Shown: piece after piece, positions 21,389 through 33,483 of the stretch | How the letters are laid out: each line of letters starts with the position of its first letter | How positions within the stretch are numbered: the first letter of the stretch is position 1 | DNA from: Arthrobacter sp. AQ5-05 | Lineage (GTDB): Bacteria; Actinomycetota; Actinomycetes; Actinomycetales; Micrococcaceae | Length of the DNA: 39,238 bases | Assembly (NCBI RefSeq): GCF_003287975.1 | Contig: NZ_QMKQ01000031.1 | Location: forward strand, 1-39,238 | Reading direction: 5' to 3' | The notes under the pieces: generated by a model | The model's database searches: none | Seen by the model: only the letters and a program-made list of their open reading frames with translations | Told to the model about the DNA's origin: nothing | Made by a program: the position numbers and the translations under genes

Positions 21389-23323
21389 ATGGCACGGTTC
21401 TGGACACGCCTGATGGTGGTACTCACGTTGATACTGGGCGTGAACTACATCGGTTGGCGCTGGGCAGCCTCGCTGAACTGGGACGCCTGGTGGATCGCGG
21501 TCCCGCTGGTTGCTGCCGAAACCTACAGCCTGATAGACGTGCTCCTGTTCGGGATGACGGTATGGCGCTTGAAGGAACGGACCGGGGCGCCGCCGGCACG
21601 GCCGGACGCGACAGTGGATGTCTTCGTCACCACCTACAACGAGCCGCTGGAGATGGTCATGAACACCGCGCTGGCCGCAGCGCGCATCCGGCATCCGCAC
21701 AGCACCTGGATCCTTGACGACGGGGACCGGCCGGAACTGCGGCGGCTGGCGGCCGATCACGGGCTCGGGTATGTCACCCGGGGCGAGGACTGGGCCAACA
21801 AGCCGCGGCACGCCAAAGCGGGAAACCTGAACAACGCGTTGATGGTCACCGAGGGCGAGTTCCTGTTGATCCTGGATGCCGACCAGGTCCCGGAACCCGA
21901 CATCCTGGAAAAGACCCTGGGCTATTTCAACAACCGAAAGGTCGCGCTGGTCCAGACCCCGCAATACTTCACCAATGTCCCCGACGACGACCCGCTGGGC
22001 AGCCAGGCCCCGCTCTTCTACGGACCCATCCAACAGGGCAAGGACGGCTGGAATGCGGCCTACTTCTGCGGCTCCAATGCCGTGCTGCGCCGCGAGGCAC
22101 TCATGGAACTCGGCCTGCTCGGCTACGTGCAGGAGACCGAAAAGAGCATTCGCCGGGCCCTGGCCGCTTCCAAGAAGGCAATCCGGCAGGCCCGGAAGGC
22201 CGCCGACGCCGACTCGCCCCTGGTCGGGGACATGCTGGACGAGGTTGAGGCTGCCATCGGCCAAGCCGACAGCCAGTTGGCGGCCGGGCAGTCGCTGAGC
22301 GAACTCACCTACGAGGTCCAACGAAAGGTGGACGCCGCGGTCCGCGCCCTGGTCCAGGCCGATGTGCGGGCGCTGCAGGCGGACCTGGAGGAAATCGCCG
22401 CCATGGACCTGGCAGCGGTGGGCGACACCGGGGTCAAGGTGATCACCGACGAAGCAGTTCAACGGCTCTCGGCACGGGAGTGGTCCCCGCTGGGCGCCAT
22501 GGAATCGGTCCAGGCGGTCCTGGACGCCCTGTCGGTGGAGCGTGCCGGCGAGGCGCAGCCGCTCATGCCGCTGGCCACGATCTCCGTGACCGAGGACATG
22601 GCCACCGCCATGCGCATGCACGCCCGCGGCTGGCAGAGCGTCTACCACCATGAGATCCTCGCCTACGGATTGGCACCCGAAGACATCGGCACCATGATGA
22701 CCCAGCGCCTGCGCTGGGCCCAGGGGACCATGCAGGTGCTGCTGCGGGAAAACCCGCTGACCCAGCGCGGCCTGAAGTGGGGCCAGCGGCTGATGTACTT
22801 CTCCACGATGTGGAGCTACCTGAGTGGATTCGCGGCCATCGTCTATTTCGCCGCACCCGTCATCTACCTGCTGCTGGGCATCCTTCCGGTGGCCAGCCTC
22901 AGCACCGATTTCTTCATCCGCTTCATTCCGTTCATGGTCGTGAACCAAGTGCTCTTTGCCGTTGCCGGGCACGGGATTCCCACATGGCGGGGCCAGCAAT
23001 ACAGCTTGGCGTTGTTCCCGACCTGGATCAAGGCCTGCACCACGGCGGCACGGAATGTCTGGTTCGGTCGTCCCCTCGGTTTCGCCGTCACCCCGAAGGA
23101 CCGCCAGGAGGGCGGGCCGCGCTGGAGCCTGATCCGGCCGCAGATCACGGTTGCCGTTCTTCTGGTGGTTGCCGCAGTTGTCGGCAGCGTGCGCCTAGCC
23201 ACGGGTTTGGCCGAACCGGTCGGTACGCTTGTCAACGTCGCCTGGGTCGTCTTTGACCTGCTGGTGCTCAGCGTCCTGTACAAGGCCGTACGGTACCGGG
23301 GCCATGCGCCCGGCGAAAATTAG
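21389..23323 (+). CDS. cellulose-synthase-like family 2 glycosyltransferase with helical insertion
   Basis: The 644-residue membrane enzyme resembles the BcsA catalytic core that makes and exports a processive polysaccharide. Two N-terminal helices are followed by the GT2 domain: D110-D111 in LDDGDRP, the DxD motif at 163-165 (LDADQVPEP), FCGSNAVLRREAL near 227, TED at 401-403 and QRLRW at 439-443. C-terminal membrane helices follow. Between FCGSN and TED lies an extra stretch of about 150 residues (248-396) rich in Ala, Glu, Lys and Gln, predicted helical or coiled coil; BcsA has only a short loop there. No C-terminal PilZ domain is visible. The start has GGAAGG 9 nt upstream. The three genes that follow encode a partner-switching module. 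The product polymer is not determinable. Confidence 0.88.
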   Translation: MARFWTRLMVVLTLILGVNYIGWRWAASLNWDAWWIAVPLVAAETYSLIDVLLFGMTVWRLKERTGAPPARPDATVDVFVTTYNEPLEMVMNTALAAARIRHPHSTWILDDGDRPELRRLAADHGLGYVTRGEDWANKPRHAKAGNLNNALMVTEGEFLLILDADQVPEPDILEKTLGYFNNRKVALVQTPQYFTNVPDDDPLGSQAPLFYGPIQQGKDGWNAAYFCGSNAVLRREALMELGLLGYVQETEKSIRRALAASKKAIRQARKAADADSPLVGDMLDEVEAAIGQADSQLAAGQSLSELTYEVQRKVDAAVRALVQADVRALQADLEEIAAMDLAAVGDTGVKVITDEAVQRLSAREWSPLGAMESVQAVLDALSVERAGEAQPLMPLATISVTEDMATAMRMHARGWQSVYHHEILAYGLAPEDIGTMMTQRLRWAQGTMQVLLRENPLTQRGLKWGQRLMYFSTMWSYLSGFAAIVYFAAPVIYLLLGILPVASLSTDFFIRFIPFMVVNQVLFAVAGHGIPTWRGQQYSLALFPTWIKACTTAARNVWFGRPLGFAVTPKDRQEGGPRWSLIRPQITVAVLLVVAAVVGSVRLATGLAEPVGTLVNVAWVVFDLLVLSVLYKAVRYRGHAPGEN

Positions 23324-23379
23324 CCCGATCCACCCAACGCGTCGCCGGATTCCCCGGCTGACCACAGAAAGGAACCTCG

Positions 23380-23712
23380 ATGGAGTTTAGCCACAAGGCC
23401 AGTGGGTCTTACACGGAAGTTCTGGCTTCCGGAAGGTTGAACATGGTCTCGGCACCCAACCTCAGGGCGTACGTGGGCGAGGTGGTGGCCTCCGGCTCGA
23501 ACCGCATCGTCGTGAACCTGGCGCAGACCACCTTCATGGATTCCTCCGGGCTCGGCGCGCTGATCGGATGCCTCAAGGCAGCCCGGCAGGCCGGCGGGGA
23601 CCTGCGCATCGCGGCCGTTCAGCCACAGGTGAAGATGGTCCTGGAACTGACCAGCATGGACCGGGTGCTGACCTCGTACTCCTCGGCCGAGGAGGCCTTC
23701 GGCAATGAATGA
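23380..23712 (+). CDS. STAS-domain anti-sigma factor antagonist (RsbV/SpoIIAA-like)
   Basis: The 110-residue protein is a single STAS domain. The phosphorylatable serine lies in TFMDSSGLGALIG (S55/S56), the hallmark of SpoIIAA/RsbV antagonists. In known systems a kinase phosphorylates this serine and a SpoIIE-type phosphatase removes the phosphate, switching binding partners. ATG 23380 has AAGGA 6 nt upstream. It follows the glycosyltransferase by 56 bp and overlaps the kinase-like gene by 8 bp. No sigma factor lies in this operon. Confidence 0.92.
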   Translation: MEFSHKASGSYTEVLASGRLNMVSAPNLRAYVGEVVASGSNRIVVNLAQTTFMDSSGLGALIGCLKAARQAGGDLRIAAVQPQVKMVLELTSMDRVLTSYSSAEEAFGNE

Positions 23713-24136
23713 GCCGATTGCCAGCCGGAGCTTCCGCGACCGGGCCATCCCGGAGTCCATCGAGGCCGTCCACATCCTGCTCGACAAGCTGTGGGCAGAT
23801 GCACCCTTTGTTCCGGACGTGGACCGCATGACCTTCGCCACCGCGGTGATCGAGGCCGCCTCGAACATCGTCCAACATGCCCTGCCGGAATTCCCGACGC
23901 CGGTGGACCTGGGAGTGGAGATCAGCGTCAGGACCCACAGCCTGCGGGCGGAGATCAGCGCCTTCGGCGCCACCGATCCCCAGCTGGATACCGAGGCCAA
24001 GGGGATGCCCGGTCCGGAAGCCGAGTCGGGGCGCGGCCTGGCGCTGATCCGGGCCCTGGTCAGCACAGTCACCTTCGTCCGGCAGGACGGCACCAACACC
24101 TGGGTCCTGTCCCGGGACTCGTCGCCGCACCCATGA
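23705..24136 (+). CDS. serine kinase/anti-sigma-like ATPase (RsbW/SpoIIAB family)
   Basis: The 143-residue protein has the GHKL/HATPase fold. The N box is FATAVIEAASNIVQHA (E50, N54) and the G box is ESGRGLALIRALV (108-115). This family phosphorylates a partner STAS protein and usually sequesters a sigma factor. The 8-bp overlap with the STAS gene and the SpoIIE phosphatase downstream form the standard three-part switch. The true target could be the glycosyltransferase, since no sigma gene is adjacent; that is inference. Confidence 0.9.
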   Translation: MNEPIASRSFRDRAIPESIEAVHILLDKLWADAPFVPDVDRMTFATAVIEAASNIVQHALPEFPTPVDLGVEISVRTHSLRAEISAFGATDPQLDTEAKGMPGPEAESGRGLALIRALVSTVTFVRQDGTNTWVLSRDSSPHP

Positions 24137-24149
24137 GGAAGTTAGATCC

Positions 24150-25472
24150 ATGGCATTAGGCCCTTCACGCGTCCTGGTGGGGCTCGACGAGCTTTCGCCG
24201 TTGCGCAAGCAAATTCCCTTTGCCGCAATGTTCGTTGCCGCCGCGCTCATGGCATTGGTGCTCCCGACCGTGCCCATCAGCAACGCCGCATCCCTCATCG
24301 CCGGGCTGGCGGCGGTTGCCGTGGCTCTGGTGCTGGCGGTCATCTTCGGCCGCCCGGGTCTGTTGCGCTTCGCCATCATCGTGCCCGTGCTGGACTTCGT
24401 TGCCGCCGGCCTGCTGCGCCACGGCACCGGGGAGTCGCACTCCATTTTTGCCGCCATCCTGCTGCTGCCACTGCTCTGGTTCGCCGCCAGGGCCGGACGC
24501 CGCTACGTGATATACGCCGTCCTCGGATCCATCCTGTCGGTCTCGGTGCCGTTCATCCTCGGCGCCCAAAGGGAAAACAATCCCAATGAGCTGGCACGCG
24601 GCATCTTCAACGCCACGGTCTTCGCAATCAGTGCTGCCGTGGTCAACGAGCTGGCCGCACGGGCCCGCCTGCACTTGGGCACCGCCCGGGAGGAAGCCGC
24701 TGCGGCCGCGGAGGAGCTAAGCCGGGCCGCACAGATCCAGAAATTCCTGCTGCCCAAGAAAGCCGCGATCCTGCCCGGCTACGAAACCGCCGGGGCCTGC
24801 ATCCCCTCCAAGGCCGTCGGAGGGGACTTCTTCGACTGGTATGCCATCGACGGAGGCCTGGGCTTCACCCTGGGCGATGTCATGGGCAAGGGCGCCGGGG
24901 CGGGAATGATCGCGGCCACCACGCGCGCCGTCATCCGCAGCGCCCGAAACAGCGACGACCCGGTGAAGGCACTGGCCTTGACATCGGACTGCCTGGCCAC
25001 CGAGCTGAGCCAGGCGGCGGCGTTCGCCACGCTCTTCCATGCCAGGCTCCGCGCGAGCGACGGCAGGGTCCTGTTTTCCGACGCGGGCCACGGGCTGAGC
25101 CTGTTGATCCGCGGTAACGGGACATGGGAGCGATTGGCCTCGCACGAACTTCCGGTGGGACTGATGCCCGAGGCAACCTGGACGTCCCGGGAAATCTGGC
25201 TCGCCCCGGGCGACATGATCGTCAGCTTCAGCGACGGGGTGTTGGACCTCTACGACGGAACCCTGGCCGCCATCGCCGAGGTTGCGGAGCTGGCCCTGCA
25301 CGCCGACTGCGCCCAGGGCATCGTGGACGCAGTCCACACGATGGCCTCCGGAAACAGCAATCCCGACGATGTCACGGTCTTGGCCGTGCGCCGATCCGAG
25401 CTGAACACCGCGGTTGCCCGGAACCCGGGCCTTGGAGACGGTCGCGTCCTGTCGTCGGTGTCGGAGAGCTAG
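24150..25472 (+). CDS. membrane SpoIIE-type PP2C phosphatase
   Basis: The 440-residue protein has about six membrane helices (residues 20-168), a helical linker (170-200) and a PP2C/SpoIIE phosphatase domain. Metal-binding motifs are intact: VGGDFFDW (D226), LGDVMGKGAGAGM, SDAGHG, SFSDGVLDL and PDDVTVLAV. It would dephosphorylate the STAS antagonist. The membrane part has no known sensory domain but is the probable signal input. The start has GAGGAAG about 9 nt upstream. Its stop TAG shares CTAG with the convergent ogt gene. Confidence 0.92.
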   Translation: MALGPSRVLVGLDELSPLRKQIPFAAMFVAAALMALVLPTVPISNAASLIAGLAAVAVALVLAVIFGRPGLLRFAIIVPVLDFVAAGLLRHGTGESHSIFAAILLLPLLWFAARAGRRYVIYAVLGSILSVSVPFILGAQRENNPNELARGIFNATVFAISAAVVNELAARARLHLGTAREEAAAAAEELSRAAQIQKFLLPKKAAILPGYETAGACIPSKAVGGDFFDWYAIDGGLGFTLGDVMGKGAGAGMIAATTRAVIRSARNSDDPVKALALTSDCLATELSQAAAFATLFHARLRASDGRVLFSDAGHGLSLLIRGNGTWERLASHELPVGLMPEATWTSREIWLAPGDMIVSFSDGVLDLYDGTLAAIAEVAELALHADCAQGIVDAVHTMASGNSNPDDVTVLAVRRSELNTAVARNPGLGDGRVLSSVSES

Positions 25473-26062
25473 GAAAACGGGTCAGCCAAGCGGTCATGCT
25501 CGAGGTCGAGCAGGACCTGCTTGGCCTCCAGCCCGCCGAGGTAACCGCCCAGGGAGCCGTCGCTGCGCAGCACCCGGTGGCAGGGAACCAGGATCGGCAG
25601 CGGGTTGGTGGCGCACGCGGTGCCCACGGCCCGCACCGCCGCCGGGCGACCTGTCAGCGCCGCCATCTGCTTGTAGCTGGCGGTGTGCCCGTAGCCGATG
25701 CTCGGCAGGGCCAGCTGGACCTCCAGGCGGTACCCGCGCGAAAGCCGGTGGTCGAGGGACAGCTCGAATCCCTGGCGGGAATGCGCGAAGTATTCATCGA
25801 GCTGGGCTGCCGCCGCATCCAGCGGTGCGGCACGGTGCAGCACCCGCACCCCGACCTTCTGCGCCAGGGTTCCGAGCACCGCGTCGAAGTCCTCGGCGGC
25901 GAAGGCGACGCGCACGATCCCGCGCTCGGTGGCGGCAAGCATCAGTTGGCCCACCGGGGAATCCACCAGCCGGTAGGAAACATCGATCAGCCCCTCGGCC
26001 GCGGCCCGCTCGGCCAGCCGCTGCCGCAGGACATCCATTTCGTGCATGGCAAGTTCGCTCAT
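25469..26062 (-). CDS. ogt: methylated-DNA-protein cysteine S-methyltransferase
   Basis: The suicide enzyme transfers alkyl groups from O6-alkylguanine to its own cysteine. The 197-residue protein carries the active-site motif NPLPILVPCHRVLRSDGSLGGY and the DNA-binding RAVGTACATN segment. The N-terminal domain (about 30-100) is present. ATG 26062 overlaps the sigma factor stop by 4 bp and has GAGGA upstream. Coupling to a sigma factor implies damage-linked expression. Confidence 0.93.
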   Translation of the reverse strand: MSELAMHEMDVLRQRLAERAAAEGLIDVSYRLVDSPVGQLMLAATERGIVRVAFAAEDFDAVLGTLAQKVGVRVLHRAAPLDAAAAQLDEYFAHSRQGFELSLDHRLSRGYRLEVQLALPSIGYGHTASYKQMAALTGRPAAVRAVGTACATNPLPILVPCHRVLRSDGSLGGYLGGLEAKQVLLDLEHDRLADPFS

Positions 26063-26538
26063 GATTCTTCCTCCGCTTCGTGGTGTTGGCTGCGCAGGGC
26101 CTTGATGCCGTCCGCGGCGGCCCGGCGCAGCGAGGCGGGATTGCCGCCCAGGTATGCCGGGATGTCCGCATAGGGGAACCCGAGCAGGTAGTGGTAGCCG
26201 ATGACCTTGCGTTGCAGCTCACTCAGCGAGGCCAGCGACTCCAGCAGCTCCAGCTGTCCCGTGACCTCGGGCAGCACCACGGTTTCGGGGACCTCGTCCA
26301 TGGGGATTGGGTGGTTGGCGCGCAGGATGTCGATGGCCTTGTGCCGGGCGATGGTGATGAGCCACGCCTCGATGTTGGCGCCGGCGGCCAGGGACGGGTA
26401 GGCGCGCAGGGCCGCCAGGAACGTTTCGCTCCAGGCGTCCTGCGCATCGGGTCCCGGGCCCAGCAGCGCGGTGCACATGCGCAGCACCGCGGTGCCGTGC
26501 CTGCGCACCACCAACTCGAAGGCGGGGTTCGCTGTCAT
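26059..26538 (-). CDS. ECF-like RNA polymerase sigma factor
   Basis: The 159-residue protein has region 2 (about 8-75, ending ITIARHKAIDILRA) and region 4 (about 95-150, LSELQRKVIGYHYLLGFPYADIPAYLGG...LRRAAADGIKAL). It is short, as expected for the ECF class. No anti-sigma gene is adjacent. ATG 26538 is taken; GTG 26544 in frame is an alternative. It is coupled to ogt by ATGA overlap, so it may steer a DNA-alkylation response. It begins 43 bp after jetC on the same strand, so read-through from jetABC is possible. Confidence 0.87.
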   Translation of the reverse strand: MTANPAFELVVRRHGTAVLRMCTALLGPGPDAQDAWSETFLAALRAYPSLAAGANIEAWLITIARHKAIDILRANHPIPMDEVPETVVLPEVTGQLELLESLASLSELQRKVIGYHYLLGFPYADIPAYLGGNPASLRRAAADGIKALRSQHHEAEEES

Positions 26539-26581
26539 CTCCACACCCTGTAAACGCGCCGGGGCACCATTGTGTGAGGTG

Positions 26582-29500
26582 CTATCGCAAAATGATGCTC
26601 GTGGCCACGGCCGGGGAGCGGCCCGAGGCCACGAACCCGGAGACATTGGATTCGGGGTGCTTGATGATGTCGCACACCGAACCCAGGTGCCGGGACAAGT
26701 CGATCTTGTCCTCCGGTGCGGCCAGCAGCAGCTGGAACCCGAATTCCTGCAGCGCGTTGATGCCCGCCGCGGCGTACTCGGAGTTCGCCTGGATGAAGGC
26801 CTCGTCGATCATCACGGTGCCGTAGGCGGTGAACCCGGCGGTGGCGAAACCCAGCTGGTAGGCCAGAGCCGCGCCCATGATGAAGGAAGTGAAACGCTGG
26901 CCCTCGCCGCCGGAGAGCGTGCCCGGCTCCAGGCCGGTTTCGACCTCGCCGTTGGGCTTGTGCTCGTTGCAGCTGATGGTCACGTGCTGGCGCACATCCA
27001 GCACGGTGTCGCGCCAGGCGGCGCGCGAGGAATCATCCAGCGCATCGACCAGGGCCTCGAGCGCCTTGTAGCTCTCGCTCAGGGTCCCGGCCCCGCGCGA
27101 GGAATACGCCCCTGCCAGGGCCTCCTTCAGCGCCTGGCGGAAGGCCCGCGCCTCGTCGGGGATCGTCGTGGCGACCTCGAGGGCCAGCCTGGAGCCGTGC
27201 TCGAAGGTGACATCGGCCAGGATCTGGTTCAGCGGCGAGATCCGCTCGGCAATCGACCGGCGTTCCTCCTCCAGCAACTGCAACAGGTCCGAGAAACGCT
27301 CGTAGGAGCGGTTGGAGAAGTACTCGCGGAACTCCTCCTCGTGCTGCGGCAATCCCTGCTCGATGATGCCCTGGTGCAGGGCGACGTAGTGCTCTGCCGC
27401 CTCCACCGAGGTTCCGAAGGAGACCGCGGCGGAATTGCCGAACTCGCGGGCAAAGGACCTGAAGGTGTCCTTCAACGCCGCTTCCAGCGTGTAGGCCTCG
27501 CGCTTGAGGTCTGCACCGGACTCGGACAGGGCCAGGGCCAGCGCGTTCAGCGCGGCCTCCAGCTCGGTGGTGGACACCGGGGCCCCCTCATCCAGGCGCT
27601 TGATGAGCGGGGCCAGCTGCTCGCTGGCGGCCAGCTTCTCGACGGCCCAGTCCTCGGTGGTGGCATCGCGCACCGACGCGGCGCGCAGCGCACCTTGGGC
27701 CCGCTCCAGCGCTGCCGACAGCGTGGTTGCCTCGGCGCGGGCCACGGCCAGGGTGCCGACGCATTCCTCGAGTTCTGCACGCGCCGCCTCCAGGGCCCGG
27801 CGCACATGCGAAAGGTCCCCGGACTGGGACAGCGCCTCGGCCATGCGTGCCTCGAGGTCCTGCAGGATGACCAGGGCGCCGGAGGCATCCAGGGATGCGA
27901 AGGACCTGTCGTCGCTGGCCAGGGAGCCCAGCAACGCCAGCTTGGCGGCCAGCTGGTCCTTGGCCGCGGAGCGGTCGTCGGCCACCGAGGCGGCGCGGGT
28001 GGTCTCGGCCTCCAGGGCCGCCAGCTTGGTCTCGAGTTCGGAGATCTTCTCCGCGTTGGTGAAGCCGAGCAGGTAGTCCGAGGCGGCCACCGGGCGGGTG
28101 TCGCGCTCGAAGGTCCCGGACCCGGTCTTGATGGTCCCGGCCAGCGAGATGGCCTTGTCGTGGATGTGCAGGCCGGCATCGGTCTCGACGCAGGCCAGCG
28201 GGTAGTCGGCGGCGATCTTGGCGCGCAGCCAGGTGCCGGCGGCCGAATGCTTGAAGTCGAGCTTCCCCACCAGGTCCCCGGGGCCGGAGACGACCTCGCG
28301 CGGGGTCTTGGAGATGTCCATCCAGCGGATCCGGCCCAGACCCGAGAGCGAGTCGATGGCCCGGGTGACCGACTTGATGTCCTCCCCGCGCACCAACAGC
28401 GTGGTCGCCAGGGACCTCAGCGCCTTTTCGGCGGACGGCCGCCACTGCCCGTGCGAGGGGGAGAGATCGATCAGTTCCCCGGCGAAGGGCAGGAAATCGA
28501 TGTCCAGGTTGGTGGAAGCGGCGATGGCGCGGCGCGCGGCGATCGACCGGTCATCGATGTTCGAGCCGCGCTTGGCATAGGAATCGATCTGCAGCCGCAG
28601 CTTCTTGGCCCGGTCCTTGAGGTTCATGACCGTCGCCATGGCCTCGTACTCCATGGTGCGTGCGTCCTTGGCAATGGAGGCCAGGTTCTCGGCGCTGACC
28701 GCGGCCTGCCGGCGCATGGCCTGCAGCCCGGAGGCGGTGAAGGTGAAGTTCAGGCCCACGGCCTCGAAGTTCTCGCGCAGCGTGCGCAGCACTTCTTCGC
28801 GCTCGGCCAGGTGCCTGCGGGCGGCCTGGGCTTCGCGTTCCAGCAGCGCCAGCCCGGCGCCGCCTCCGGCCTCGTGCTGTTCGTTCAGCGAGGCAACCTT
28901 GGTTTCCAGGGTTGCCTTGCGGGCACCGCTTTCCTCGATCAACGCGGTGTTGGCCTCGACCGCGGCGCTGAGCATGGAATTCTCGCCCTGCAGGGCCCGG
29001 GTCGCCAATTGCGCGCCAAAGGCCGGAAGCTGCGTGGAGACCAGGGCACCGAGGGTGGACAGCTCGGCGGTCAGTTCGTCATGGCGCAGCTTCTGCTCCG
29101 GCACCGAGGCCAGGGCGTCGCGCTGGGCGCGGGCCTCCTCGAGCTGGCGGTGGATGCCGCGAAGGTGGGAGAAGTCCTCGATGGCCCCGGCGGCTGCCTT
29201 CATGGTGGCGGGTACTTCCAGCACCTCGTAGCGGAAGAACTGGTTCACGCCCTTGTCCAGGCCCTTGCCGTTCTGCAGGGTGCGCAGCAACGAGAACGCC
29301 TTGTCGTTGTCGATGCCCAGGCGGCGGCGGAACTTCTCGGCAAAGGCGCGGTGCACGTCGAAGGCCTCGAAGCCGGGCAGGGATTTCTGCAGCGAGGACG
29401 GGGTGAAGCGCCGGGCCCCGTGGTCTTCCAGGGCAGCGGTGTCCAGCGCCCGGTCGCCCATCACGTAGTGCTTGCCGACCTGGCCCTCCAGGCCGTTGGC

Positions 29501-29905
29501 CGGCAGGTCGAAGATCGCGCCGATGCACACCGAGGATCCCAGGCCGTCCTCGTAGACCAGGGCCAGGGCGCTCCAGGTGGCGCCGGGGCGCTGGTAGAGC
29601 GTGCCGGCCTCGGTCTTGAAGCGGCGTCCGCGCATGTAGGAGTAGGTGGTGCGGCGGTCCTTGCGGGTGGAGGCCTCGTGCGCGGATTCGTTCAGCCGCG
29701 GTGCGGCATGGAAGATGTGTCCGATGCCGTCAAAGAGCGTCGACTTGCCAACGCCCGGGTGCCCGGTGAGCAGGGTTCCGGCGCGATCCACATACAGGGT
29801 GTGCCGGCCGTGGAAGGTGCCCCAGTTGATGACCTGGATCTGGGTGAGCCGGTGCTGCCCGGGGTTCAGCGCGTCGGAGAGCGGGAGGGTCATTTCAATG
29901 CTCAT
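26582..29905 (-). CDS. jetC: JetC/MksB SMC-like ATPase of a Wadjet-type complex
   Basis: The 1107-residue protein is the SMC-like motor of a Wadjet/MksBEF complex, which extrudes DNA loops and in Wadjet recognises plasmid-sized circles. Walker A GHPGVGKST lies at 48-56, the signature LSGGEGQ at 997-1003 and Walker B VMIDEAF near 1031-1037 (D1034, E1035), so the ATPase looks intact. Long coiled-coil stretches (about 260-460 and 640-800) flank a central hinge-like region. The gene overlaps jetB by 4 bp. In standard loci jetD follows jetC; here a sigma factor gene follows instead. Confidence 0.9.
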   Translation of the reverse strand: MSIEMTLPLSDALNPGQHRLTQIQVINWGTFHGRHTLYVDRAGTLLTGHPGVGKSTLFDGIGHIFHAAPRLNESAHEASTRKDRRTTYSYMRGRRFKTEAGTLYQRPGATWSALALVYEDGLGSSVCIGAIFDLPANGLEGQVGKHYVMGDRALDTAALEDHGARRFTPSSLQKSLPGFEAFDVHRAFAEKFRRRLGIDNDKAFSLLRTLQNGKGLDKGVNQFFRYEVLEVPATMKAAAGAIEDFSHLRGIHRQLEEARAQRDALASVPEQKLRHDELTAELSTLGALVSTQLPAFGAQLATRALQGENSMLSAAVEANTALIEESGARKATLETKVASLNEQHEAGGGAGLALLEREAQAARRHLAEREEVLRTLRENFEAVGLNFTFTASGLQAMRRQAAVSAENLASIAKDARTMEYEAMATVMNLKDRAKKLRLQIDSYAKRGSNIDDRSIAARRAIAASTNLDIDFLPFAGELIDLSPSHGQWRPSAEKALRSLATTLLVRGEDIKSVTRAIDSLSGLGRIRWMDISKTPREVVSGPGDLVGKLDFKHSAAGTWLRAKIAADYPLACVETDAGLHIHDKAISLAGTIKTGSGTFERDTRPVAASDYLLGFTNAEKISELETKLAALEAETTRAASVADDRSAAKDQLAAKLALLGSLASDDRSFASLDASGALVILQDLEARMAEALSQSGDLSHVRRALEAARAELEECVGTLAVARAEATTLSAALERAQGALRAASVRDATTEDWAVEKLAASEQLAPLIKRLDEGAPVSTTELEAALNALALALSESGADLKREAYTLEAALKDTFRSFAREFGNSAAVSFGTSVEAAEHYVALHQGIIEQGLPQHEEEFREYFSNRSYERFSDLLQLLEEERRSIAERISPLNQILADVTFEHGSRLALEVATTIPDEARAFRQALKEALAGAYSSRGAGTLSESYKALEALVDALDDSSRAAWRDTVLDVRQHVTISCNEHKPNGEVETGLEPGTLSGGEGQRFTSFIMGAALAYQLGFATAGFTAYGTVMIDEAFIQANSEYAAAGINALQEFGFQLLLAAPEDKIDLSRHLGSVCDIIKHPESNVSGFVASGRSPAVATSIILR

Positions 29906-30561
29906 AGCTCTTCTGTCTCCAACTCGAATTCTTCGGTGTCATCGGTGCCCACGCGTTCAATGGCCTTGATGTACTCGGGGATTTCCTCGATCGCCGCAAA
30001 GGGCAGGGCAAGGGCCAGGGCGCCGGAGACCTTGTACTCGTCGGCCAGCTCGGTGGGCAGGACGAGCTTGAGGTTCAGCAGCCGGGTGAGGGCCGCGTCG
30101 GTGTTCTCTTCCAGTTTCTTGTCATCGGTGTCCCCGGGGGCGCGGTGCTCCAGCAGGATCTCGCGTGCCGCCTCCCGGGTGATGACCGCGTCGGTGCCCG
30201 AGCCCGCGTGGCGCTCGAGCAGCAGGCGCAGCCGCAGCGCGAGCAGTGTTTCCTCGCGCTTCAGCGCGCGGCGCGGGGCGATTGCGGTGGTGTGTGCGGC
30301 CTCCAGGTCCACGGGGGCCAGCAGCGCGATCTTGCGGTTGGCGTCGACCTCGAGGACCAGGAAGATCTCGGCGACATAGGCCGAGATCTCGGCCCGCCGG
30401 TCCAACACCAGCTGCCAGAGTCGCGGCTCGGCGACCCCGTCCAGGTAGGGGCCGCGCAGCAGGCGCACCAAAAGCTGGCGCAGCGGCAGTTCGAAGGAAC
30501 CGGTGTCGCCCGCAAAGAGGCGGCGTTCATCGACGGCACCGGAGGGAAGTGGGCTGCTCAT
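29902..30561 (-). CDS. jetB: JetB/MksE (DUF4194) subunit
   Basis: The 219-residue protein matches DUF4194, the MukE-like winged-helix subunit that bridges the kleisin and the SMC motor. The core includes FELPLRQLLVRLLRGPYLDG, a LFLVLEVDANRKIALL-like strand region and an LTRLLNLKLVLPT helix. A strongly acidic C-terminal tail (TDDTEEFELETEEL) is present. Both ends overlap neighbours by 4 bp (ATGA), showing tight translational coupling in the order jetA, jetB, jetC. Confidence 0.88.
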   Translation of the reverse strand: MSSPLPSGAVDERRLFAGDTGSFELPLRQLLVRLLRGPYLDGVAEPRLWQLVLDRRAEISAYVAEIFLVLEVDANRKIALLAPVDLEAAHTTAIAPRRALKREETLLALRLRLLLERHAGSGTDAVITREAAREILLEHRAPGDTDDKKLEENTDAALTRLLNLKLVLPTELADEYKVSGALALALPFAAIEEIPEYIKAIERVGTDDTEEFELETEEL

Positions 30562-32015
30562 GCGGGATCCTTCGTAAAGCTCATGGCCGGCACCATTGCG
30601 GTGCGTGTGGCGCCGTCGACCTGGGTGAAAGTGATTTCCTCGAGGGTGGCCTCGTCGATGCTTTCCCCGCCGTTGCGGGCAGCCTCGATGAGGTACCTGA
30701 TGGTGTTCAGGTGCCGGTGTTCGTCCGACAGCCCGTTGTAGGTTTCGCGCAATCCCACCGAGCCGCCGGCCTTCGCCCGCGAGGTGAGGATCGCGTGGTT
30801 CAACGCCGGGACGTCGGGGCTCGGGGTGGAGGGGGTGCGGCGGATGTCGGCGATGGACAGCGGCGGCGGGGCGGCCAGCTTGGGCGGGGCGACGTGCTCG
30901 TCCGGGTCGTAGATGCCCAGCGCCGCAATGGAGGTGAAGCGCGGGGCGTAGAGCCGGATCGGGGCCACCGGCGTGCGCGAGTGCAGGACGCGCGAGGAAG
31001 CGACGGCGATTTCCGCGGCCCGCACGGCCTCGCGCAGGATCGCCGCCTCCTTGAACTCGGCCGATTGCACGTAGGCGTGCAGGGATTCGGAAAGCCGGCC
31101 GTAGGACTGGTGGACCTCGGAGGCCTGGCGGCGCAGCTCGCGGAGCATGTTGGCCAGGGTGTGGCGTTCCTGGGCGTCCAGGGCGTCGACGAAGTCGCGT
31201 TCCATGACCTCGTTGACGGCCTCGCGGAAGCGTGCCTGGGCCTCGGGGGAGTTCAGGAACTCGGTAAAGCCGCGGAAGGTCTCGCCCTGCGGGGTGCTGC
31301 GCAGCTGCTTGTCGCCCTCGAGGACGGCGCCGACCGCGACGCCCTTGACGGAGGAGGATTCCATGATTTCCCCGCGCAGCGCGTGGAGCATTTCCTGGAC
31401 GCCGTCGCGCATGCGCTTGAAGTCTGCCGGCAGCCCGGAGGCCATGTCGAGCACCGAGCGGGTCGCGGCCAGCGCACCCTCGCGGGGCAGCACCGCCGGG
31501 GAGGTGCCGTCGCGCAGCGAGGCGATCTTCTCCTGGCGCTGGGCGATTTCCGCCTCCAGCGCGCGGATGCGTGCGGCCGGGTCGGGGTCGGTCTCGTGGG
31601 CCAGGGATTCGAGGGAGGTCAGCAGCGTGTTGAGCCGCGAGGAGTTCAGGTTGGTGCGGTCCCCGGAGAAGTCAGAGAGGAACTTCAGCACGCGTGCGGT
31701 CTGGGCGGTGGGTTCGTAGACGAAGTGCCCGTCGACCAATGGGCGGGCCAGGAACTGGTTTCGCACCCAGGCATCGGCATATTGGGCGGCGGTCATCGAG
31801 TCGTTGAAGGCCGGGTCCTCGGAGCGCACGACCTTGAGGAAGGATTCCAGGGACGCATGGAAGACCTCCAGCCCGACGCGGGGCTTGGCGCTGGTGAATT
31901 CGGCGCGCAGGAAGGCCACGGCCCAGGGTGCGGTGGAGAGCAATTTCCAGGCGGCGGACGACCTGAATTGTTGCGTCTGACTCCACAGCGGGCTCGCCTG
32001 GTGGGTAGGTCGCAT
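30558..32015 (-). CDS. jetA: JetA/MksF (DUF3375) kleisin-like subunit
   Basis: The 485-residue protein matches DUF3375, the MukF-like kleisin of Wadjet. The N-terminal winged-helix region includes SSAAWKLLSTAPWAVAFLRAEF, a middle helical part carries IRALEAEIAQRQEKIASLRDG, and the C-terminal part ends with the IRYLIEAARNGGESIDEATLEEITF block. ATG 32015 has AAGGA 6 nt upstream and is preferred to longer in-frame extensions that would cross the divergent promoter region. It is the first gene of the jetABC operon. Confidence 0.88.
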   Translation of the reverse strand: MRPTHQASPLWSQTQQFRSSAAWKLLSTAPWAVAFLRAEFTSAKPRVGLEVFHASLESFLKVVRSEDPAFNDSMTAAQYADAWVRNQFLARPLVDGHFVYEPTAQTARVLKFLSDFSGDRTNLNSSRLNTLLTSLESLAHETDPDPAARIRALEAEIAQRQEKIASLRDGTSPAVLPREGALAATRSVLDMASGLPADFKRMRDGVQEMLHALRGEIMESSSVKGVAVGAVLEGDKQLRSTPQGETFRGFTEFLNSPEAQARFREAVNEVMERDFVDALDAQERHTLANMLRELRRQASEVHQSYGRLSESLHAYVQSAEFKEAAILREAVRAAEIAVASSRVLHSRTPVAPIRLYAPRFTSIAALGIYDPDEHVAPPKLAAPPPLSIADIRRTPSTPSPDVPALNHAILTSRAKAGGSVGLRETYNGLSDEHRHLNTIRYLIEAARNGGESIDEATLEEITFTQVDGATRTAMVPAMSFTKDPA

Positions 32016-32046
32016 CACGGTCCTTTTGCTGGGGATTGACCAAACA

Positions 32047-32074
32047 ATCCTAGTCCATCGGCGCGCCCGTTTAA
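32047..32074 (-). promoter_or_regulatory. possible jetA promoter
   Basis: On the minus strand TTAAAC (32069-32074) and TAGGAT (32047-32052) are separated by 16 bp and lie about 32 bp upstream of the jetA start. This resembles a housekeeping actinobacterial promoter. No operator-like repeat is visible around it. Confidence 0.35.
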
Positions 32075-32175
32075 GGTTGCCCCCGATCTGGGTAGGGTCG
32101 TTTGAACCACACCGGTGACCTCGGGCGCGAGGGACCGTCCATCCCTGCGCCGGGACGAAAAGTGAGGGGCACGTC

Positions 32176-33483
32176 ATGAAACCTCGGATACGCCTGGCCG
32201 CAGCCGCGGCCCCAATGACCGCCTCGGTGCTGGTCCTGGCGGGGTGCACCACCCCGCCGTACATGCCCCCGAGCCAATACGACCCCACTTCCGTAGGCTC
32301 GGCCCCGCAATCGATGGTTTCCCCCAGCGAACAAGCCGAGGGCCCATCCGAGGCCGAACGGATCGAGAAGGCCAAGACCCTGGCCGCCGGCTACGACTAT
32401 GCGGCGGCGAAGAAGGTTCTGGCCGGCTTGGAGGGGGTCGAAGCCGAAACGGCATTGGCGGACATCAAGGCCGCCGCAGCCAAGACGGTGGTGTGGGAGG
32501 ACAGCTCGAAGATCTCCCACCTTTTCGTCCACTCCCTGGTGGTTGACACCAAGCGGGCCTTCGACGGGGATTCCAAGGAGCAGGGCTACCTCGACTACAT
32601 GGTCACCCTGGACGAATTCAAGAAGATCCTCGCGGAGCTCCACGCCCGCGGTTACGTCTTGGTGAATCCGGCGGACATCGCGTCCCTGGATGCCAACGGG
32701 AAGATGAGGTACCAGGACATCCACCTGCCCAAGGGCAAGAAACCGCTGGTGCTCTCCGAGGACGACGTCAGCTACTACGAATACATGGAGGATGACGGGT
32801 TCGCCTCGAAGCTGCTGATCGATGGCGACGGCAAGGTCACAAGCGAATACGTGGATGCGGCGGGCAAGAAGCACATCGGCGCCTACGACATGCCCCCGGT
32901 GGTTGACGAGTTCGTGGAAAAGCACCCGGACTTTTCCTACCGGGGTTCCAAGAGCATCCTCGCCTTGACCGGCTACAACGGCGTGCTGGGTTACCGCACC
33001 TCGAAGAGCGAGTACCCGGATTCGAAGACCCTGGACGCGGACATCGCCACGGCCACCGAGGTGGCGACCGCGCTGAAGAAGGACGGGTGGGTCTTTGCCT
33101 CGCACGCCTGGGGCCACATCAACATGACGACCAGCTCGATCAAGCGGATCAAGCACGACATGGTGCTGTGGGACAAGGAGGTGCGCCCCATCCTCGGGGA
33201 CACCGACCAGTTTATCTATCCTTTCGGTGCCGACATCTCCGGGGTCCCGGCCTACAAGGGCACAAAGTACAACATGCTCAAGAAGGACGGGTTCGATTTC
33301 TTCTACGGCGTCGACGGAACCACGCCGGCGTGGATGCAGCCGGGGGATTCCTACCTGCGCCAGGCCCGCATCAATATCGATGGCCTGCAATTCGCCAAGG
33401 AGCAGCGCGGGGACCGGCCGGTGCTGAAGTGTTTCTTCGACGTCAAGGACGTCGTCGACCCCAAACGACCCAAATCCAAGTAG
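32176..33483 (+). CDS. lipoprotein polysaccharide deacetylase family protein
   Basis: The 435-residue protein has a lipoprotein signal peptide with lipobox LAGC (C24), so it should be anchored outside the membrane. A short Ser/Pro-rich linker and a helical region (about 60-105) precede an NodB-like polysaccharide deacetylase domain. Its metal site is visible as D196-D197 (LSEDDVSYYEY) and H310-x3-H314 (SHAWGHINM); YPFGADISG follows. Family members remove acetyl groups from N-acetylglucosamine polymers. The first motif differs from the usual TFDDG. The ribosome site GAGGGGC is well placed. Confidence 0.87.
   Translation: MKPRIRLAAAAAPMTASVLVLAGCTTPPYMPPSQYDPTSVGSAPQSMVSPSEQAEGPSEAERIEKAKTLAAGYDYAAAKKVLAGLEGVEAETALADIKAAAAKTVVWEDSSKISHLFVHSLVVDTKRAFDGDSKEQGYLDYMVTLDEFKKILAELHARGYVLVNPADIASLDANGKMRYQDIHLPKGKKPLVLSEDDVSYYEYMEDDGFASKLLIDGDGKVTSEYVDAAGKKHIGAYDMPPVVDEFVEKHPDFSYRGSKSILALTGYNGVLGYRTSKSEYPDSKTLDADIATATEVATALKKDGWVFASHAWGHINMTTSSIKRIKHDMVLWDKEVRPILGDTDQFIYPFGADISGVPAYKGTKYNMLKKDGFDFFYGVDGTTPAWMQPGDSYLRQARINIDGLQFAKEQRGDRPVLKCFFDVKDVVDPKRPKSK

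Follow-up and report, generated by a model that had tools for sequence, protein, structure and literature searches.

Organization of the operon

The operon described here lies on contig NZ_QMKQ01000031.1 of Arthrobacter sp. AQ5-05 (the window, that is, the whole stretch of 39,238 nucleotides analyzed; contig C31 of the 4.65 Mb genome). A single run of plus-strand genes (21389–25472) encodes a BcsA-like family 2 glycosyltransferase (GT), a STAS protein, an RsbW-like kinase, and a membrane phosphatase of the SpoIIE type. Open frames and Pfam matches (Cellulose_synt/GT2, STAS, HATPase_c_2, and SpoIIE) bear out the four genes as placed by an earlier reading of the letters of this DNA, referred to below as the sequence-only reading.

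The GT (21389–23323) is 644 residues long and matches the Pfam families Cellulose_synt (E 9.5e-24) and GT2. Alignment delimits an insertion formed by residues 245–396 (22121–22576), placed directly before the TED motif (residues 401–403; 22589–22597), which is invariant in the 29 rows of our A2 alignment. The segment FAVTPK (23081–23098) matches FxVTxK, which we take to be the counterpart of the gating-loop motif of BcsA. The STAS protein (23380–23712) is a single-domain protein of the SpoIIAA/RsbV type with 110 residues (Pfam STAS, E 1.6e-17; TIGR00377, above the cut-off). It contains a DSSG motif, the serines of which are Ser55 and Ser56 (23542–23547); Ser55 aligns with a position that is alanine in PDB chain 1tid_B. 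The kinase gene (23705–24136) overlaps the STAS gene by 8 bases and encodes 143 residues (Pfam HATPase_c_2, E 2.9e-11) with intact N and G2 boxes, and with Ala86 in place of the G1-box aspartate. The phosphatase (24150–25472) has 440 residues, belongs to the SpoIIE (PPM) type (Pfam SpoIIE, E 2.4e-33), and has a membrane part as judged from its sequence. No N-terminal domain was recognized in it by a domain scan.

A second copy of the operon is present on a 14.6-kb contig of the same genome (C50; locus L006, 260–10532). Its GT, STAS protein, and kinase are 88%, 92%, and 78% identical to those of the window. Two phosphatases follow the kinase in this copy, a GAF-phosphatase and a membrane phosphatase, with an ogt-like piece downstream; an OpgC-like acyltransferase gene and a GH26-like gene lie upstream on the opposite strand. 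Kinase searches of the window's genome returned the two operon copies only. Two other STAS matches in this genome belong to open frames, 601 and 807 codons long, that by inference encode SulP-type transporters. The closest GT among the relatives found, with 95% identity, is that of Paeniglutamicibacter psychrophenolicus.

The glycosyltransferase and its insertion

Among solved structures, BcsA chains are closest to the GT in sequence. Like BcsA (TIGR03030; PDB 4hg6, 7lby), the GT has the catalytic motifs and the gating motif. The DDG and DxD motifs are invariant in the A2 alignment (D110 D111, D163 D165), and TED, QxxRW, and FxVTxK are present in 82 of 82 GTs. Unlike BcsA, the GT has no PilZ match in the Pfam search, scores 358.9 bits against the BcsA cellulose synthase model TIGR03030, which is about half of the 699.1 cut-off, and carries about 150 extra residues before TED.

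BcsA (7lby) aligns to the GT in two pieces, residues 3–243 and 396–628, so that the insertion announced by the sequence-only reading is real. That reading had called it a helical insertion of roughly 150 residues. The first two thirds (residues ~247–350) indeed have a helical periodicity, with a best angle of 102 degrees and none of 2000 shuffles as strong, whereas the same test detects no helical periodicity in residues 351–394. No convincing relative of the insertion was found in Pfam or the PDB; it gives only weak coiled-coil-like matches, the best of which is TraB (E 1.1e-4, 15 of 29 members). The spacing from FCGSN to VTED is 169–172 residues in 79 of the 82 GTs. It was read as 121 residues in the other three, most likely because an earlier VTED within the insertion was matched, as in locus L013.

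Linkage of the insertion to the switch genes in Actinobacteria

The insertion was found in 22 of 396 genomes in an order survey and in 2 of 396 genomes, the window's own included, in a phylum survey. A class survey that used the N-terminal half of the GT gave matches in 156 of 394 genomes. Among the matches listed, 24 have an identity of at least 67% and the others of at most 47%; the 20 best of the latter form the comparison group without the insertion. The stretches examined for neighboring genes comprise those of the best 80 of 483 relatives, 20 from the phylum and order surveys, 20 from the class survey, the window, and its second copy. Two loci with a contig end cutting the GT (L067, L160) and three duplicates (L123, L125, L198) were left out before counting. 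After duplicate removal there are 118 distinct GTs with the insertion, and 116 of them, including both copies from the window's genome, are not cut by contig ends. One locus (L197) was excluded from the comparison group because it holds a broken GT of the switch clade. This GT breaks off after ~224 residues, and only a short phosphatase fragment is nearby, which looks like decay of the operon.

The sequence-only reading expected the insertion to occur together with the switch genes, and the survey agrees. Within 5 kb of the GT, a STAS gene is present in 114, a kinase gene in 113, and a phosphatase gene in 110 of the 116 loci, whereas none of the 20 relatives without the insertion has a STAS, kinase, or phosphatase match in stretches of 7.5–16 kb (switch-gene profiles, E 1e-4). 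The genes are ordered phosphatase-GT-STAS-kinase on one strand in 100 of the 110 complete loci. The phosphatase gene comes last, as in the window, in six of the remaining loci, and four have genes on mixed strands. Clustering of the neighboring genes in 102 stretches, which is imperfect, placed one antisense frame in 55 stretches; every other cluster from outside the operon is confined to 33 or fewer. Therefore, the GT is the common partner of the switch.

A GT-STAS pair without an adjoining kinase or phosphatase persists in locus L136 of genome G777, and is possibly a natural minimal version of the module. The best kinase match in G777 has 57.9 bits, compared with at least 108.9 bits in the other eight genomes searched. 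The kinase-like gene of G777 stands between two STAS matches, which indicates that another switch exists in this genome.

Relatives outside Actinobacteria and length of the loop before TED

A search of plasmid proteins found relatives of the GT in Sphingobium, Paracoccus, Pseudooceanicola, Rhodobacteraceae SC52, Pantoea, Chimaeribacter, Salmonella, Vibrio, and Nostoc. The best 40 rows contain 17 proteobacterial records, the query's own included, that are at least 56% identical to the Sphingobium GT. They are followed by Nostoc with 32% and then by BcsA-like proteins with at most 28% identity. We inspected 12 of the 17 proteobacterial records. Each of these 12 carries genes for a STAS protein, an RsbW-like protein, and a phosphatase within ~8 kb, as identified by annotation or profile. 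Of the 11 annotated proteobacterial loci, 10 have acyltransferase or opgC and DUF3131 genes annotated close to the GT. In the Nostoc relative, the GT is ~1 kb away from a STAS gene, ~1.7 kb from a single SpoIIE frame, and ~5 kb from a HATPase_c_2 gene. None of the switch genes was found in five comparison loci of BcsA or BgsA-like enzymes (7.5–19.6 kb each).

The term pre-TED loop here denotes the segment bounded by TED and by the RR that follows FCGSN, counted on one alignment. It has 14 residues in all 24 non-switch enzymes, which comprise 20 actinobacterial proteins and four BcsA, CelA, or BgsA-like ones. The plain 14-residue loop is present in L233, a relative that we take to be BgsA-like from its HlyD-GT gene pair. 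All 30 of the aligned switch-linked GTs have a longer loop: 163–179 residues in 17 actinobacterial GTs chosen from the 118, 56–60 residues in 12 proteobacterial ones, and 36 residues in that of Nostoc. The full 150-residue insertion is thus not required for the linkage, since the switch-linked proteobacterial GTs have only 42–46 extra residues. The extra stretches of the loop begin alike by eye (GLLGYVQETEKSIRR, ALRSYVWTVEEEIAR, GLQNFADEFTKDEKR). In a maximum-likelihood tree of 54 GTs, the 30 switch-linked ones group together with a node support of 27 (read after rerooting), and the actinobacterial and proteobacterial groups have a support of 100 each. Because the support of the uniting node is only 27, we do not claim a single origin.

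Conservation of the switch proteins

The DSSG motif is present in all 117 aligned STAS rows, which include the three duplicate loci, and its first serine is retained in nine of nine proteobacterial STAS proteins. The N-box glutamate and asparagine and the G2 glycines of the kinase are present in 116 of 116 aligned rows. GHKL enzymes use the G1-box aspartate for binding the adenine base. This residue is missing from all 80 kinases of our first set, and is kept in 24 of 116 kinases of a wider set and in 17 of 20 kinases of a set chosen for diversity, the exceptions being the window's two copies and L125. By eye, it is also kept in nine of nine proteobacterial kinases. Judged from these alignments, the G1-box aspartate of the kinase has been lost in the lineage of the window, in contrast to the N and G2 boxes and to the serine of the STAS protein, all of which have stayed invariant. 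A phmmer search of the kinase against the PDB gave no match up to E 1. The STAS protein is better conserved than the kinase, with a median identity to the window of 74% versus 59% (n=115).

The aspartates of the phosphatase motifs GGD, DxMGKG, and PDD (profile positions 75, 92, 255, and 256), which we take to be catalytic or metal-binding, are present in 114 of 114 aligned rows. A scan of 81 phosphatases (80 of the 112 listed and the second phosphatase of the C50 copy) identified a receiver domain in 40, a GAF domain in at least 31, and PAS or MASE1 domains in a few. The sensor part is thus swapped between loci while the remaining module stays.

Sigma factors and GGDEF proteins as possible alternative outputs

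The operon itself contains no sigma factor gene, as the sequence-only reading had noted. An ECF-like sigma factor gene (26059–26646, minus strand) lies beyond it, on the far side of an ogt-type gene. We rejected this sigma factor as the target of the switch, since the 14.6-kb contig that carries the second copy gave no ECF match by tblastn.

A SigB/F/G model was searched against 23 genomes with the insertion. Nine of these genomes gave matches of at least 187 bits, of which one is above the cut-off. The best match in the other 14 genomes, the window's included, reaches at most 133.4 bits, which is the level of primary sigma factors. Some of these 14 have a second sigma match near that level (130.8 bits in G473; class not assigned). 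The sole other sigma factor with region 3 in the window's genome adjoins flagellin. GGDEF matches are present in 19 of the 23 near-complete genomes, and none was found in the other four, G473, G482, G581, and G610, all of which are among the 14. G581 and G482 have one sigma match above 25 bits each, and all their STAS matches except that of the operon are in long frames. A single kinase of this family was identified in each of the four genomes with a family-specific model, which can miss remote kinases. G473 and Jonesia quinghaiensis have identical aligned GTs. Since neither a sigma factor nor a GGDEF output is evident in these four genomes, the GT remains the best candidate target.

The only GGDEF match of the window's genome (contig C30, 13893–16304) lies ~1 kb from another, distant GT2 match. 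A synthase of the type controlled by cyclic di-GMP (c-di-GMP) may therefore coexist with the switch-type synthase in this genome.

Proposed mechanism

The genes and their motifs, the linkage, the enlarged loop, and the genomes without SigB/F/G-type sigma factor or GGDEF matches are observations. The comparison across three bacterial phyla suggests that the enzyme itself is the target of the switch, with the extra loop beside the active site as the means of control. We propose, with a probability of slightly above one half (about 0.52), that the four genes form a self-contained partner-switch module in which the BcsA-like polysaccharide synthase is controlled post-translationally by docking of the STAS protein on the pre-TED loop. 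The binding of the STAS protein to the GT, the direction of its effect, and the phospho-state that acts are what we infer. The sequence-only reading had likewise named the GT as the target, gated through the insertion. The near-invariant linkage and the genomes without sigma or GGDEF outputs argue for the GT as the target, and a single line of evidence, the correlation of loop length with the switch, points to the insertion as the contact.

In the proposed mechanism, the RsbW-like kinase would phosphorylate the STAS protein, and the phosphatase with its sensor part would dephosphorylate it at the DSSG serine. One phospho-state of the STAS protein would dock on the pre-TED loop. By analogy with SiaC and SypA, proteins of the systems compared below, this is most likely the dephosphorylated state. 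Docking on this loop, enlarged by ~150 residues, would turn the synthase on and would replace the c-di-GMP/PilZ control of BcsA. In BcsA, the loop before TED continues into the finger helix on which TED is located; therefore, protein binding at this position could control catalysis or translocation. The pre-TED loop would play the part of the SiaD stalk, following the same logic as the SiaABCD system. The STAS protein is favored over the kinase as the contact by locus L136, by its better conservation, and by SypA, which acts downstream of its kinase (PMC10120452).

We consider it about an even chance, if slightly short of one, that the enzymes form a class of c-di-GMP-independent, STAS-gated synthases in at least three phyla. 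The pre-TED loop would have grown into a docking site in each lineage, and the sensors of the phosphatase (receiver, GAF, membrane) would be freely exchanged. Should the proposed mechanism hold, c-di-GMP would not be the only means of regulating processive glycosyltransferases but one of two, and the pre-TED loop would be a place where such control is recognizable from sequence.

Alternative explanations

The GT could instead stand in the place of the sigma factor, with the kinase binding the insertion and holding the synthase off until the dephosphorylated STAS protein pulls the kinase away, according to the SpoIIAB/RsbW logic. Canonically, the module works in this direction. The kinase is retained in nearly all loci, and the invariance of its N-box Glu/Asn and G2 glycines, even where the G1 aspartate is absent, would suit a binding role. 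We nevertheless consider this arrangement unlikely, because the GT-STAS pair of G777 persists without an adjoining kinase, though with a kinase-like gene elsewhere in the genome, and because the kinase is less conserved than the STAS protein. A little less likely still, the insertion may have another job, such as assembly or binding of a small molecule, and the switch may act on another product of the pathway, for example the OpgC-like acyltransferase or the DUF3131 proteins. The class-specific region of plant cellulose synthases, located at a comparable place, serves assembly, and acyltransferase or opgC genes are close to the GT in the second copy and in most of the annotated proteobacterial loci. 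However, no gene from outside the operon recurs widely enough among the clustered neighbors, the antisense frame aside, and the enlargement of the loop tracks the switch.

It is improbable that the target of the switch is an alternative sigma factor with its gene at another locus and that the GT is merely a co-regulated neighbor. The module is of the Rsb type, and nine genomes do have a match of at least 187 bits in the SigB/F/G search; however, the 14 genomes with nothing above the primary sigma factor level, and the location of the other region-3 sigma factor of the window's genome beside flagellin, speak against it. Least probable of all is a switch acting on a diguanylate cyclase, the c-di-GMP of which would activate the GT. 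Such a route is published for the β-glucan synthase BgsA of Sinorhizobium meliloti (Bgr system, as cited in PMC7647112), and most genomes with the insertion have GGDEF matches. In two of the 23 genomes, G677 (L131) and G697 (L130), a weak GGDEF match (67–69 bits) is only 1–3 kb from the GT, which counts in favor of a cyclase and against direct control of the synthase. Nevertheless, the GT has no PilZ match, four genomes have no GGDEF match, and only 3 of 121 loci, those of G677 and G697 not among them, have an intact [AGS]GDEF motif within 5 kb, in a search that misses degenerate domains.

Further observations weigh against control of the synthase by docking of the STAS protein. The case for the binding of STAS to the GT comes from sequence comparison. 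Mean-field covariation analysis of 116 concatenated GT-STAS-kinase rows (effective number 58) gave no signal; we set the test aside because its positive control, the STAS-kinase pair, was no better than other pairs. Two GTs have the insertion and lack switch genes in the fetched stretch, which the sequence-only reading had named as a finding that would speak against it. L128 has no switch genes in the 7–8 kb fetched on each side (18 kb), and its genome holds another GT copy that has them, while the genome of L071 contains STAS and kinase genes elsewhere. The presence of a kinase-like gene elsewhere in G777 means that its GT-STAS pair may borrow a kinase. Without the G1 aspartate, the kinase of the window's lineage may not phosphorylate in the usual way; it may have low activity, be atypical, or act solely by binding. 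The Nostoc GT (L219, 7917–9902) has a larger extra segment, of ~110 residues, at a different place, between DDG and HAKAG. The linkage and the growth of the loop may share one origin, in which case the 116 loci are not independent. Finally, in the HsbA system the phosphorylated form (HsbA-P) is the one that binds HsbD (PMC5085249).

Comparison with known partner-switching systems

The sequence-only reading took the Rsb and SpoIIA switches to act on sigma factors. This view is too narrow, as exemplified by SiaC and SiaD (PMC8457831), HsbA and HsbD (PMC5085249), and the Bgr system (PMC7647112). Like SiaABCD of Pseudomonas aeruginosa, the operon of the window combines a phosphatase (PP2C in SiaABCD), a kinase, a STAS-like phospho-protein, and an enzyme, which is a family 2 glycosyltransferase here and a diguanylate cyclase there. 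Unphosphorylated SiaC is described as binding the helical stalk of the diguanylate cyclase SiaD and activating it (PMC8457831, PMC7647112); the sensitive element here would instead be the pre-TED loop. SiaC is phosphorylated on a threonine, whereas we propose the DSSG serine.

The BgrUVW-BgrR-BgsA system of S. meliloti resembles the module in that a partner switch controls a cellulose-synthase-like β-glucan synthase (as cited in PMC7647112; PMC5567048). There, BgrV controls BgrR (as cited in PMC7647112), and the system acts through this cyclase and c-di-GMP, unlike the module proposed here. In the SypE/SypA system of Vibrio fischeri and HmpUVW of Nostoc punctiforme, a partner switch connected with polysaccharide or biofilm likewise has a STAS protein as its downstream output (PMC8256260, PMC10120452, PMC4517449). 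According to these sources, the targets of the two systems are not known, whereas here a candidate target is encoded beside the switch. Section 6 of PMC8256260 acknowledges STAS outputs without known targets (SypA, HmpV, RbaV) as a gap. As the enzyme and the switch are encoded together, and some genomes lack both of the known outputs searched for, the question of the STAS target narrows here to whether two known proteins bind each other. No paper on this gene cluster was found among the listed titles and abstract openings of open-licence PMC papers, and a partner switch with the polymer synthase itself as the enzyme target is not reported in the literature examined.

Genes neighboring the operon

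On the minus strand next to the operon (25469–26646), a gene for an ogt-type methyltransferase overlaps the ECF-like sigma factor gene and is convergent with the phosphatase gene; the same pair is present in P. psychrophenolicus (L039). The frame at 32071–33390 of the window has no PADLOC or Pfam match. The minus-strand genes at 26582–32375 encode homologs of JetC, JetB, and JetA of the Wadjet system, as identified by PADLOC.

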